From Xestospongia bergquistia (taxonomy: Eukaryota; Porifera; Demospongiae; Haplosclerida; Petrosiidae), in assembly GCA_963965975.1 (NCBI GenBank), contig OZ014417.1, positions 7,870,821 through 7,934,820 on the forward strand: a stretch of DNA of 64,000 bases, read 5' to 3'. Shown piece after piece: positions 3,594 to 10,145 of this stretch (within the stretch, counting starts at the first letter, position 1; each line of letters opens with the position of its first letter). A model generated the notes under the pieces. The model searched no databases, was not told where the DNA came from, and saw only the letters and a program-made list of their open reading frames with translations. The position numbers were made by a program, and so were the translations under genes.

Positions 3594-3918
3594 TGTTAGT
3601 TTAAAATAGTTGAGAGCTTATAAAGATGAAACGAAGACCTGGAGACAAGAGATTTGGATCTAAAGAATGAAGTGGTAGGGCCCTTTTTTATACCCTCTTG
3701 TCTACCCGCGCTAGATTTGAACGTTCACATCTGGTTGGTTAATACGTAAACAACATTATAAGGATCACATGATACATAGCTAACAGTTTAATGGGCATGA
3801 ATATATAATCAGCTAGTGATCCTCTAGATCAACTAAGAGAGCTTTATTTAGAAGCACAACAAGCTCCTCCCTTGAACAAATTTACGTCTTGCAAGGTTCG
3901 CTGCCCTTTTGGAGCATC
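3594..3918 (-). promoter_or_regulatory. H3 promoter, TATA box at 3684-3692
   Basis: On the minus strand GGGTATAAAAAAGGGCCC lies about 90-100 bases upstream of the H3 ATG, predicting a 5' UTR of roughly 65-70 nt. From 3616 rightwards the sequence is shared with 5966 and 9822, where the same promoter faces CLUAP1 genes. Only the 22 bases next to the H3 start codon are unique to this copy. Confidence 0.8.
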
Positions 3919-5310
3919 ATGCAGGCTGCTAAAATCAAGAATTAAGCAGCCCGAACGAATTGTCTTTTGAGTTGAACTATTGTTCCCATGTAGGGACAAT
4001 GCATGAATGAAACGGCTAATGACAACTTTTCAAATGAAGCTGTCCATACGTATACTATATATTTCACAGCTAGATATATAGAAAACTACATATTAACTGC
4101 AAATGTTTAAGTAAAATCCATTACTAAGTACTTTAACAATATGTAAAAAATTAACCAGGGTTTTTAAATAAAATCATAATCGATTATATCACTCATACTT
4201 TGAACTTAGTTTCTGTGTGTTTCTCTACTTTAGGAAGATGGTGTTGGTTTTGCTACAACATTGCATTGAATAAATTCTATCTTTCAATTCTAGGTGGTTC
4301 ACAATATTGTTACACACAACCTGAACCATCAGATGATAAGGTTATTTAAATTCAGATCAGCATGCTAATGTTTTACTAAAAGTAGAAAATGAAATGTTAT
4401 CTTTTTGAAAACTAAAACTAAATTATCTTAAAATACACTTAACCATTTTTATTATTATATTTGTAGGAACCAACTAATATATGGTTTCTAACATTTCATA
4501 TTGTGGACGCCATATCTGTCCATGCCATTCATGGATGGAGTGAAAAACAAGTAGGTTCTTGAACTAATGCAACATGTTAAGTTACTTTTACATATTACCC
4601 ATATCTCTATAACATGCTCAGTAATGTTAGATGAATATTATTACAAAATAGAGCGTTATAATTATGGTACCAGCTGTGAGATCATTACACAGTGTGGAAA
4701 TGTAATCACTTATATTGTGGCAATGAATTTTATATAATGTTCTTCCATTTTCATAATGTATTTGATATACAAGTTCTGTTAACATTCTTATAATAATTCT
4801 ATACAATTAAATGATGTTATTATGTAGTTGATTCAATTACATAACTCTATTAAAATATTTTAGTAACTTTTAAACCAGAAAAGCATTCTATACATATTAT
4901 TACACAACTAACAAGCCACTAACACTCAAGTACATAACATTTACTTACTTCCATCAATACTAGTAACAATAGAGATAAGAGTAGGTACTATTACAGTAAA
5001 CATTACACTGTCCTTTAATTATATTAGTATATTAAGGTGTTGACATGTTTAATATGTCCTCTAGTAATTACTAGTACTATAATATAATAATAAATATAAT
5101 ATTACTATACTAATATAATATAATGATATAATATAATAAAATAATACTATAATAAACAATATAATAATATAATATAATAATAATTATAATGACTTTTATT
5201 TTGACTGTCACTCATGTTTTATTTCCTGATCACCATAGAAACAAGGAGGACGCTGTATCTTATTGTATGGTCAAGCCATTTTATTGGCTTCTGGACCTCA
5301 ACAGGATAAA
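3919..5310 (+). pseudogene. Broken copy A of ryanodine receptor exons 1-4
   Basis: Matches the four intact exons at 10146-11692. In exon 1 one A is missing, giving AAA ATC AAG AAT TAA, and a 10-bp deletion removes the FVRT codons and the GTGAGT splice donor. Exon 2 has a deletion in the GTGCATA stretch that leads to a TGA. Exons 3 and 4 are well preserved, with one Arg to Cys change (CTGTAT) in exon 4. It cannot supply a normal receptor N-terminus. Confidence 0.88.
5085..5190. repeat. TAA/ATAATA-rich tract, copy A intron 3
   Basis: A low-complexity AT tract of 'taatataata' type just before exon 4 in copy A. The corresponding tracts in B and C are longer, so this intron is a site of repeat-length change. 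Confidence 0.85.
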
Positions 5311-5498
5311 GTAAGACATTGTAGTAATGGCAATATTTATTTTTATTACAATGCTAATACTATAACATGTAGTTTGTTGTACATGAATCTTCATGACTAG
5401 TACTCCTCATTGTTGAAACTTGATGTCTGTGTCAATCTGTCTTCTATATCTAGCTTGTTTAGACTGGCTACGATGTATAGGTAGCCTACCCTGTCCAG

Positions 5499-5952
5499 GA
5501 CAATTCTAAATATTCTAAATTACGAAATTTTTCTAAGTAAATCTCATATTGTCACTGTAATTCTGATTCCAATCTCTCGTACTCATCCATATAAGCAGGT
5601 CTTACATTTGCAAGACTTTGTAATCGTTTTTTTTTCTTTCCAGTTCTTGTCTCTTTTTTTCAATTTTTACTTCTAAGCTAGCCTCATCAGAAGCTGCATT
5701 GTCCATTCTCTGATTCATACGTTGTATTTCTGCATTTACAGCTGCTATACTGTTCTCAATACCTCTTTCAATCTCGTCTATGTCGACAGATCGTGATATA
5801 GCACTGAGTCTGTCATACCTCTGAATTAACCAAGTAAGAATTTCAGCTACAAGAGAGAAATTAGGCTATCTAAAGTTCTCCATTGATATCAGCCTTGGAT
5901 AGCCTAAAGTGTGCATCATCTCTGTGAAGTTTCTAATTTCTCTGTAAGACAT
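5499..5952 (-). pseudogene. Broken copy of the intronless CLUAP1/IFT38 gene
   Basis: Matches the intact gene at 8687-9808 from its start codon (5950-5952). It carries a CAG to TAG nonsense change at codon 29, just after the MENFR motif. It lacks about 348 bp corresponding to 9321-9668, an in-frame loss of 116 codons joining QRYD to RLSAISRS. The coding homology fades left of about 5499, so the C-terminal third is missing. Its promoter is the one shared with H3. Confidence 0.87.
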
Positions 5953-6266
5953 TTCTGAAGAATCGTTGAGAGCCCATAAAGATGAAAACGAAGATCTGGA
6001 GACGAGAGATTTGCTGATTTGGATCTAAAGAATGATGTGGTAGGGCCCTATTTTTATACCCTCTTGTCTACCCGTGCTAATTTTGAACGTTCACACCTGG
6101 TTGGTGTGAACATTATAAGGATCACATGATACATAGCTAACAGTTTAATGGGCATGAATAAATAATCAGCTAGTGATCCTCTAGATTAACTAAGAGTAGA
6201 AGCACAACAAGCTCCTCCTTTGAACAAATTTACATCTTGCAAGGGTTGCTGCCCTTTTGGAGCATC

Positions 6267-8540: not shown

Positions 8541-8542
8541 AT

Positions 8543-8640
8543 TGGAACAAGTGAAGTTTCATTTCTAGTAAAGTTTCTCCTTGCTGTTCTTGTCTGTCCG
8601 TCTCAACCTTTTGTGATCTTGCTTGCTCTTCTGTGTCAAT
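8543..8640 (-). pseudogene. Extra fragment of the CLUAP1 C-terminal coiled coil
   Basis: On the minus strand this reads DTEEQARSQKVETDRQEQQ followed by GETLLEMKL. It combines two motifs of the neighbouring gene (NDTEEQAK and VEQDRQEQQ...LVEMKL) in altered order. It lies just past the stop codon of the intact copy and looks like a local duplication remnant. Confidence 0.7.
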
Positions 8641-8686
8641 ATTTGATAGTTGACATGGTAGGAATAGATGGTAAATAAAAATAACT

Positions 8687-9808
8687 CTAAAAGTCTCCAT
8701 CAGAGTCAATCTCTTCATTATGTCCTCTCTCCACAAACTCTCCTTCCTCCTCTTCTTGTAGATCACCCAACATTTCTTCACCATTTCTACTCCCAGAACT
8801 AAGAGAAGCACTGCCTTCATCACTGGCAATTCCTTCTCCAGTCATATTTCCAACAAACCGAGTCTTTGCTTGCTCTTCTGTGTCATTTTGTATAACAGCA
8901 TCGTTTAGAGTTTTATCATTTTCTTGTTGAACTTGAAGTTTCATTTCTACTAAAGTATGTTCTTGCTGTTCTTGTCTGTCTTGCTCAACCTGTTTGTGAT
9001 CTTCAAGTTGTAATTCTAAATACACTAAATTACGAAATTTATCCACAAAAAACTCATATTGTCTCTGCAATTTTGATTCTAATCTTTCATACTCGTACAT
9101 ATAAGCAGGTCTTACATTTGCAAGACTTTGTAATCGTTTTTTTTTTCTTTCCAGTTCTTGTCTCTTTTTTTCAATTTTTACTTCTAAGCTAGCCTCGTCA
9201 GAAGCTGCATTGTCCATTCTCTGATTCATACGTTGTATTTCTGCATTTACCGCTGCTATACTGTTCTCAATACCTCTTTCAATCTCGTCTATGTCGACAG
9301 ATCGTGATATAGCACTGAGTCTTGCCTCTCTCAAGCCAACTTCTTGGATTAAAAGTTTGTATAAATTAGCACCGTTTGTGGTGACTAGTTGGCAACACGC
9401 CTTTAGATCTGTGCTTTTACTTATCAGTTGATTATGGACTGAAGTAGACTCTGATTCATTTCCTGTTTTATCTTCATTTGAACGCATAGCTGAGTACAGA
9501 ACTGAGGTGATCTTCAGAAGTTCTTTGACAGCATAGCCATCTGCACCATAGAGTTTCTTTGTGTTCAATTTTATATGTGCTTTTGTTGCCATTAATTGGG
9601 CAGCTGACTTGATAAAGATGACTCGATCCTGTTCTGTCTCTATATTTGTTACTATATCTGCTGATGGGTCATACCTCTGAATTAACCAAGTAAGAATTTC
9701 AGCTACAAGAGAGAAATTAGGCTGTCTAAAGTTCTCCATTGATATCAGCCTTGGGTAGCCTAAAGTGTTCATCATCTCTGTGAAGTTTCTAACTTCTCTG
9801 TAAGACAT
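8687..9808 (-). CDS. CLUAP1: CLUAP1/IFT38 homologue, intronless (probable retrogene)
   Basis: CLUAP1 (IFT38, DYF-3, qilin) is a subunit of the ciliary IFT-B train. This single 373-codon frame starts MSYREVRNFTEMM and contains [52 protein letters not shown], a long coiled coil with NAASDEASLEVKIEKKRQEL, and an acidic tail ending DSDGDF. These match the family from first residue to last; human CLUAP1 is about 413 residues. Such a gene would normally have introns, so an uninterrupted copy suggests retroposition, although I see no clear poly(A) scar. It uses the promoter sequence also found at H3 and lies divergent to the intact receptor exon 1. No frame defect is visible. Confidence 0.9.
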   Translation of the reverse strand: MSYREVRNFTEMMNTLGYPRLISMENFRQPNFSLVAEILTWLIQRYDPSADIVTNIETEQDRVIFIKSAAQLMATKAHIKLNTKKLYGADGYAVKELLKITSVLYSAMRSNEDKTGNESESTSVHNQLISKSTDLKACCQLVTTNGANLYKLLIQEVGLREARLSAISRSVDIDEIERGIENSIAAVNAEIQRMNQRMDNAASDEASLEVKIEKKRQELERKKKRLQSLANVRPAYMYEYERLESKLQRQYEFFVDKFRNLVYLELQLEDHKQVEQDRQEQQEHTLVEMKLQVQQENDKTLNDAVIQNDTEEQAKTRFVGNMTGEGIASDEGSASLSSGSRNGEEMLGDLQEEEEGEFVERGHNEEIDSDGDF

Positions 9809-10145
9809 TTCTGAAGAATCGTTGAGAGCTTATAAAGATGAAAACGAAGACCTGGATACGAGAGATTTGGATCTAAACTTTCTTAGTTTCTAAAGTAAAG
9901 AATGAAGTGGTAGGGCCCTATTTTTATACCCTCTTGTCTACCCGCGCTAATTTTGAACGTTCACACCTGGTTGGTGTGAACATTATAAGGATCACATGAT
10001 ACATAGCTAACAGTTTAATGGATATGAATATTATAATCAGCTAGTGATCCTCTAGATCAACTAAGAGAGCTTTATTTAGAAGCATAACAAGCTCCTCCTT
10101 GAACAAATTTACATCTTGCAAGGTTCGCTACCCTTTAGGAGCATC
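9809..10145. promoter_or_regulatory. Divergent promoter, CLUAP1 (-) and ryanodine receptor (+)
   Basis: A 337-bp gap separates the two start codons. On the minus strand TATAAAAATAGGGCCC (TATA at 9921-9928) sits about 115 bases upstream of the CLUAP1 ATG, matching the H3 copy almost base for base. No TATA box is apparent in the receptor direction. The CLUAP1 5' leader differs from H3 only in the last ~13 bases before the ATG. Confidence 0.75.

Follow-up and report, generated by a model that had tools for sequence, protein, structure and literature searches.

A CLUAP1 duplicate with a probable captured histone H3-type promoter in the sponge Xestospongia bergquistia

Chimeric gene duplicates, in the sense given in the relevant passages of Katju (2012; PMC3449122), which offer Sdic of Drosophila as an example, are new paralogues composed of at least two donor sequences by DNA-mediated copying, without retroposition. 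The same passages describe promoter-recruiting retrogenes, in which a promoterless copy comes to lie behind a promoter of its new site. Ciliary promoters under RFX control contain an X-box, for which the relevant part of PMC10530576 gives the consensus GTNRCC N0-3 RGYAAC. Here we describe a locus of the sponge Xestospongia bergquistia (assembly GCA_963965975.1; 146 Mb in 21 contigs). The window, that is, the whole stretch of 64,000 nucleotides at C7:7870821-7934820 (contig C7 being OZ014417.1), contains three copies of a promoter segment, P, which stand before a histone H3 gene (H3-1; from window position 3609), a broken copy of the intraflagellar transport gene CLUAP1 (5965) and an intact one, CLUAP1b (9821). 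The explanation that we favor, with a probability of about 0.7, is that CLUAP1b is a chimeric duplicate with a captured H3-type promoter, probably working under replication-type control. The copies, the parent gene and the edges can be read in the assembly, and from them we infer an order of events.

Like the chimeric duplicates of those passages of PMC3449122, CLUAP1b draws on more than one donor, here a CLUAP1/RRP12 piece of contig C13 and the promoter P of C7. It differs from them in that its frame is almost whole, the foreign part being the promoter and most of the 5′ untranslated region (UTR), and in that the donor promoter is of the replication-dependent histone type while the recipient is an intraflagellar transport gene. 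With the retrogenes described there it shares the position of a promoterless copy behind a promoter of the new site, but it traveled with RRP12 remnants and intergenic sequence, and its parent is likewise uninterrupted. CLUAP1b is a clear case of a known class, the chimeric duplicate with promoter capture, in which both donor and recipient are unusual. Among the papers listed in literature searches, none joins a histone-type promoter to an intraflagellar transport gene, as judged by titles and the opening lines of abstracts.

Three copies of a promoter segment

The copies, here c1 to c3, and the genes around them are arranged as follows (window positions).

3107..3151, minus strand: 3′ stem-loop and downstream element of H3-1 (Rfam RF00032 Histone3, 35.1 bits; gathering score 34)
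3183..3593, minus strand: histone H3 gene H3-1, copy c1, 136 aa (Pfam Histone, 164.4 bits)
3609..3918: P, copy c1, between H3-1 and the dead RyR 5′ end, by alignment; TATA 3685-3692, CATTC 3665-3669 and GATCACT 3815-3821, all on the minus strand
3919..5310, plus strand: dead ryanodine receptor (RyR) exons 1-4, copy c1; frameshifts in exons 1 and 2, and no trace of the 11-base stretch containing the exon 1 donor of c3
5322..5503: junction filler, part of which resembles three other genomic places (on C6, C12 and C1; 71-82%)
5504..5952, minus strand: CLUAP1 pseudogene, copy c2; codon 29 is a stop, 354 bp of the C13 gene are absent, and there are a one-base deletion and a further stop
5965..6266: P, copy c2, by alignment; TATA 6051-6058, minus strand
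6267..7749, plus strand: dead RyR exons 1-4, copy c2; exon 2 frameshifted, exon 3 acceptor AA for AG, c3 exon 1 donor missing
8026..8554, minus strand: remnants of the stretch downstream of the C13 gene, namely intergenic sequence and the exon 1 start and intron of an RRP12-like gene, by blastn to the C13 locus (L014) and alignment; 3′ flank and truncated RRP12 sequence together occupy 8026-8680
8687..9808, minus strand: CLUAP1b, intact frame of 373 aa (Pfam Cluap1, PF10234, profile positions 2-267 of 268, 356.6 bits)
9809..9818, minus strand: remnant of the C13 gene's leader at CLUAP1b, about 10 bases, TTCTTCAGAA; joint read by eye
9821..10145: P, copy c3, between CLUAP1b and the intact RyR, by assembly search and alignment; TATA 9921-9928, CATTC 9900-9904 and GATCACT 10043-10049 on the minus strand, GGATCAC 9989-9995 on the plus strand
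10146..12015, plus strand: RyR exons 1-5, intact copy c3 (10146-10205, 10481-10594, 10721-10804, 11621-11692, 11982-12015)
20002..20736, plus strand: further RyR exon, junctional solenoid (Pfam RYDR_Jsol, 84.2 bits), with which the RyR gene continues

In every copy P is flanked by a leftward gene (H3-1, the dead CLUAP1 or CLUAP1b) and by the rightward start of RyR. The stretch shared by all three opens with GTTGAGAGC, carries the TATA sequence TATAAAAA on the minus strand with GGGCCC adjoining, and ends 15 bases short of the H3 ATG and 12 short of either CLUAP1 ATG. A 323-base query of P against the 146-Mb assembly yielded matches at these three places. A first-pass annotation, made from the letters of the window, had noted the same upstream sequence with its TATA and GGGCCC before H3 and two CLUAP1 copies, and alignment confirms it, the starts given there (3616, 5966 and 9822) lying close to those found here. 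It had placed the end of identity about 13-22 bases before each start codon. Its description of three nearly identical copies was right as to their reality and slightly generous as to their likeness: in the part of P at 3608-3760, aligned copies have mismatches at 13 of 144 sites (c1-c2), 12 of 144 (c1-c3) and 14 of 154 (c2-c3), plus indels, counts that may be raised by an uncertain alignment near 3656. That RyR, on the other strand, is a third gene facing P, and that a parental CLUAP1 lies on C13, go beyond what that annotation contained.

The tandem duplication extends about 1.7 kb past P on the RyR side and takes in RyR exons 1-4 on the plus strand; the copies remain similar to about 5320 (c1), 7760 (c2) and 11700 (c3), and c2 and c3 are alike somewhat beyond. 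Across the block at 3608-5060, differing sites number 51 of 1393 (c1-c2), 58 of 1435 (c1-c3) and 71 of 1411 (c2-c3), or 3.7-5.0%. Since identity runs on through RyR exons 1-4, P has been preserved no better than the sequence on either side; the idea that it is specially conserved is ruled out by its divergence of about 8-9% between copies, which exceeds that of most adjoining RyR intron sequence. P is shared because the block was duplicated recently, and not because P was held constant. One part of the block has a pattern unlike the rest: at 3901-4140, c1 and c2 differ at 3 of 240 sites and c3 stands apart from them (22 of 238 and 21 of 240). Comparison of 3901-4179 with 6250-6540 and 10140-10430 likewise places c1 and c2 as near-identical and c3 about 9% off, and elsewhere c3 is about as close. 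Exchange between copies after the duplication is the likely cause, and simple dating of the copies is therefore unsafe.

Of the RyR copies only the third is intact, its exons splicing to an open frame. From residue 9 onward, the spliced translation matches RyR N-terminal structures such as 4kei_A (residues 9-135, E 2.6e-6), and it is from this match that the gene is named, since the short c3 start peptide gave no Pfam family at E <= 0.01. The resemblance of the filler at 5322-5503 to places on C6, C12 and C1 identifies a dispersed repeat at the junction. An RyR intron also contains an inverted repeat (12470-12706; 83-nt arms, 87% complementary) that resembles a small foldback transposon. Elsewhere in the window, the long repeat-coding frames at 23882-24765 and 61555-61884 are minisatellites rather than genes.

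Origin and coding constraint of CLUAP1b

The parental gene, CLUAP1a, is found full length in one open stretch at C13:1452199-1453341, with an RRP12-like gene downstream (Pfam HEAT_RRP12_N, 60.2 bits; exons joined by eye). Remnants of both that gene and the intergenic sequence follow the C7 copy, and CLUAP1b is thus a DNA-level duplicate, copied from C13 to C7 without retroposition. Retroposition of CLUAP1 is ruled out by the intergenic and RRP12 sequence that came with it and by the uninterrupted frame of the parent; two marks of a retrogene, intron loss relative to the parent and absence of copied intergenic sequence, are both missing. The first-pass annotation had described the window copy as intronless, which is no sign of the event because CLUAP1a is likewise one open frame. 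In the 3′ flank of CLUAP1b, at 8552-8643, small second copies of pieces of CLUAP1 coding sequence occur, an arrangement that suggests a complex, template-switching rearrangement.

The joint itself can be located. Reading by eye, the remaining leader of CLUAP1b meets the H3-1-type 5′ UTR of P with a two-base overlap, as seen when CLUAP1b CTCTCAACGATTCTTCAGAAATG is set beside H3-1 CTCTCAACTATTTTAAAC and CLUAP1a ATCATCTTCTTCAGAAATG, and this joint supports the earlier proposal of a promoter swap inside the 5′ UTR. The C13 arrangement is taken as the old form because the protein of a close relative (P0002), which is identical to CLUAP1a at 368 of 375 aligned residues, continues upstream in frame with a stretch that, compared by eye, resembles the C13 leader. 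By our count, the nearest homologues, P0002 and P0003, side with CLUAP1a at 19 of the 21 differences between CLUAP1a and CLUAP1b, the outgroup homologues having been compared as proteins. CLUAP1b also matches the solved CLUAP1 structure 8bd7_L of the PDB (E 3.5e-80), and the nearest named match of the window CLUAP1 is from Amphimedon queenslandica (69% identity). Of four pattern matches in viral contigs and 19 in contigs of bacterial and archaeal genomes, none was confirmed as CLUAP1.

CLUAP1b and CLUAP1a are identical at 352 of 373 aligned residues. Gaps between their coding frames are whole codons, with no frame-breaking indel in 373 codons, and dN/dS between them is 0.16 by a simple count that averages over both sides. 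The dead sister in c2 serves as a third sequence from which the changes can be assigned to branches (449 shared sites; four all-different sites uncounted). After the split from c2, the CLUAP1b branch took up 5 replacement changes and 7 silent ones; without selection, about 80% should be replacements (P = 0.0036, or 0.019 if transitions are given fourfold weight). On the c2 branch there are 3 replacement and 3 silent changes, one of them a stop, and the branch toward CLUAP1a has 1 and 8. The numbers are small, and they favor continued selection on CLUAP1b after it took the new promoter. Because the frame is intact and replacement changes since the c2 split are fewer than under neutrality, CLUAP1b is probably functional.

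Ownership of P and the control sites of CLUAP1

H3-1 is a replication-dependent histone gene, as its 3′ stem-loop indicates; the first-pass annotation had called the H3 side replication-type, with an intact CLUAP1 behind the same TATA, and both points are supported, the first by the Rfam match. Its protein is identical to that of the other intronless H3 gene, H3-2 (C7:8066139), from which it differs by three silent changes in 411 coding bp; the flanks have diverged, and a conversion of the coding sequence is the probable cause. On C12 there is a third H3 gene; it is interrupted by an intron and has no GATCACT upstream.

Promoters were compared among 14 replication-type histone sequences in eight groups (grouped by eye), with replication type judged by eye from the stem-loop in 3′ flanks, and with four further promoters: an H3.3-like gene on C12, a CENP-A-like gene on C7, a macroH2A-like gene on C14 (labels that are our own reading) and CLUAP1a. 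The histone set leaves out a partial H4 (C1:17653920), second-exon and weak matches and three linker-histone-like matches (L043-L045), and for large families the genome searches set minimum numbers. Three arguments point to H3 as the owner of P. The 13-base sequence CTAGAGGATCACT has six exact matches in the assembly, three of them in P and one before H3-2, at 175-187 bases before the ATG; an exact 13-base stretch in common with copy c1 of P arose in 2 of 3000 one-strand background draws. Its core, GATCACT, occurs within 450 bp upstream in six of the eight replication-type groups, H3-1 counted, and without the two H3 genes that prompted the search it remains in four of six groups, against 5.8% of background windows (P = 1.5e-4). 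P thus shares elements with other replication-dependent promoters of this genome, a set drawn from H3-2, H2A, H2B, H4 and H1. Its c3 copy differs from these in fronting a frame that is not a histone's and at whose 3′ end no histone stem-loop was found. The third argument is layout: P and two H4 promoters have TATA and CATTC at a distance of 23-24, and a TATA-like site lies 81-113 bp before the ATG in seven of the 13 other replication-type promoters. This is the weakest of the three, since the layout recurs in only some histone promoters. Together they make it likeliest that P belonged to H3 first and passed from H3 to CLUAP1, so that the direction, which the first-pass annotation had left undecided, now leans to H3. 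In sea-urchin histone genes a GATCC motif precedes the TATA box; a literature search for it found nothing.

Both intronless H3 genes have calcium-channel neighbors, possibly by chance: RyR beside H3-1 and, beside H3-2 (L015:4140-4550), an Orai-like channel gene (L015:3272-4099; Pfam Orai-1, 92.1 bits). Two very similar divergent H2A/H2B pairs lie about 31 kb apart in opposite orientation at C15:4914625-4915524 and C15:4945843-4946733.

The control sites of the two CLUAP1 genes differ. CLUAP1a carries an X-box-like site with one mismatch 28-41 bp before its ATG, together with CGCGCATGCGCA, which we take to be an NRF1-like site. P contains neither, and no X-box, the site that would mark an RFX-controlled gene, was found within 300 bp of CLUAP1b at up to 2 mismatches. 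The CLUAP1a site fits one other ciliary gene, since IFT57 of the same genome has a one-mismatch X-box 31-44 bp upstream of the first ATG in exon 1; this comparison rests on one ciliary gene of two tried, the first exon of IFT46 being unplaced. A search of window positions 1-20000 gave a single Histone3 match at E <= 1, that at H3-1, and no histone stem-loop was found at CLUAP1b. At most, therefore, it would have inherited transcriptional timing, and not the processing of histone mRNA.

Competing histories and the meaning of the locus

Under the favored explanation the starting neighborhood would have been H3-P-RyR, with P between the two genes, as its histone-type motifs suggest. P and the start of RyR would have been copied in tandem, and a C13 piece bearing CLUAP1 and the start of the RRP12-like gene would have entered at the junction beside P, its edge about 10 bases ahead of the CLUAP1 start codon being joined, with the two-base overlap, to the 5′ UTR of P. 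A second copying would have comprised CLUAP1, P and the RyR start; c1 and c2 would then have decayed, H3 excepted, leaving H3 on c1, RyR on c3 and CLUAP1 in the former H3 slot on c2 and c3. Transcription of CLUAP1b would run leftward from about 9900, driven by the TATA at 9921-9928, and its predicted 5′ UTR, placed from that TATA and the CATTC at 9900-9904, would be about 92-96 bases long and almost wholly of H3 type. Its control would be of replication type instead of RFX type.

Several observations weigh against parts of this account. Two of the six 13-mer matches (on C1 and C10) sit where no histone gene was found, and a reversed-pattern control yields three matches. GATCACT is missing from four H4 promoters (one group, the main H4) and from H1, which carries GGATCAC, and is present at -405 in the macroH2A-like promoter, which is not of replication type. 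The TATA-CATTC distance is 11 in H3-2 and 30 in one H4; no CATTC was found within that range in the TATA-bearing H2A C2, H4 C8a and H1 promoters, and a TATA-like site is absent from the last 160 bp of six of the 13 other replication-type promoters. Since 192 of 4000 background draws of 150 bp contain an X-box with at most one mismatch, the loss of the X-box is by itself modest evidence. H3-1 and H3-2 cease to be similar within a few bases of the ATG, and the H3 frame may have been moved or converted. Several CLUAP1b changes fall at positions constant in six aligned homologues, and three residues (ASE) are lost where the six have AS and E or D, both as expected under relaxed constraint.

Two other owners of P may be considered in the light of these points. 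H3 could be the borrower, P having first served CLUAP1b and RyR before the H3 coding region was moved or converted into c1; the likeness of H3-1 to H3-2 spans the coding region and 3′ end and stops at the ATG, and CLUAP1 stands behind two of the three P copies. We regard this as improbable, for the parental CLUAP1a lacks P, P has the GATCACT of other histone promoters and the 13-mer of the H3-2 upstream region, and conversion of the coding region accounts for the three silent differences in 411 bp and the diverged flanks with the promoter unmoved. Slightly less probable still is that P was originally the promoter of RyR, or a two-way promoter of an unknown gene, behind which H3 and CLUAP1 were both placed later. 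P does adjoin RyR exon 1 in all three copies, and the whole of P is absent from the H3-2 and CLUAP1a loci, but TATA and CATTC are oriented toward H3 and CLUAP1, and histone genes have the upstream elements as well.

The structural history could also be right and CLUAP1b be a silent or dying copy, its frame open by chance. This is unlikely, yet it deserves the most weight among the alternatives: replacement changes have gathered on the CLUAP1b side, several at the otherwise constant residues, and the sister in c2 is already dead. Set against it are the excess of silent over replacement changes after the c2 split (7 against 5, with the P values above) and the absence of a frame-breaking indel between CLUAP1a and CLUAP1b, while neighboring non-coding copies are rich in indels. 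An assembly artefact, for example haplotypes laid in tandem, is very improbable. Erroneous tandem copies that differ by a few per cent are common in assemblies generally, and the first-pass annotation had named such an error as what would overturn its claim; however, there is no N in 3000-12000, the whole block lies on one 8.3-Mb contig, and the three copies have different left neighbors, many private differences, indels among them, and separate disabling changes.

A more particular proposal is that CLUAP1b is an S-phase-timed intraflagellar transport protein for dividing cells, its fast-changing residues fitting a use that CLUAP1a lacks, and that the vacated half of a two-way H3/RyR promoter acted as a gene birthplace. 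This is improbable; were the S-phase timing true, the supply would come when cilia are normally being taken down. Human CLUAP1 is said, in one report, to rise from late S to G2/M.

A new gene is believed to require a promoter from the outset, but the exact joint is seldom visible. Here donor, recipient, joint, dead sister and parent are all readable in one assembly, and both the ownership of the promoter and selection after its capture can therefore be tested. If CLUAP1b follows the histone programme, a cilium-assembly protein would have been moved from RFX-type to replication-type control by one rearrangement in an early-branching animal.

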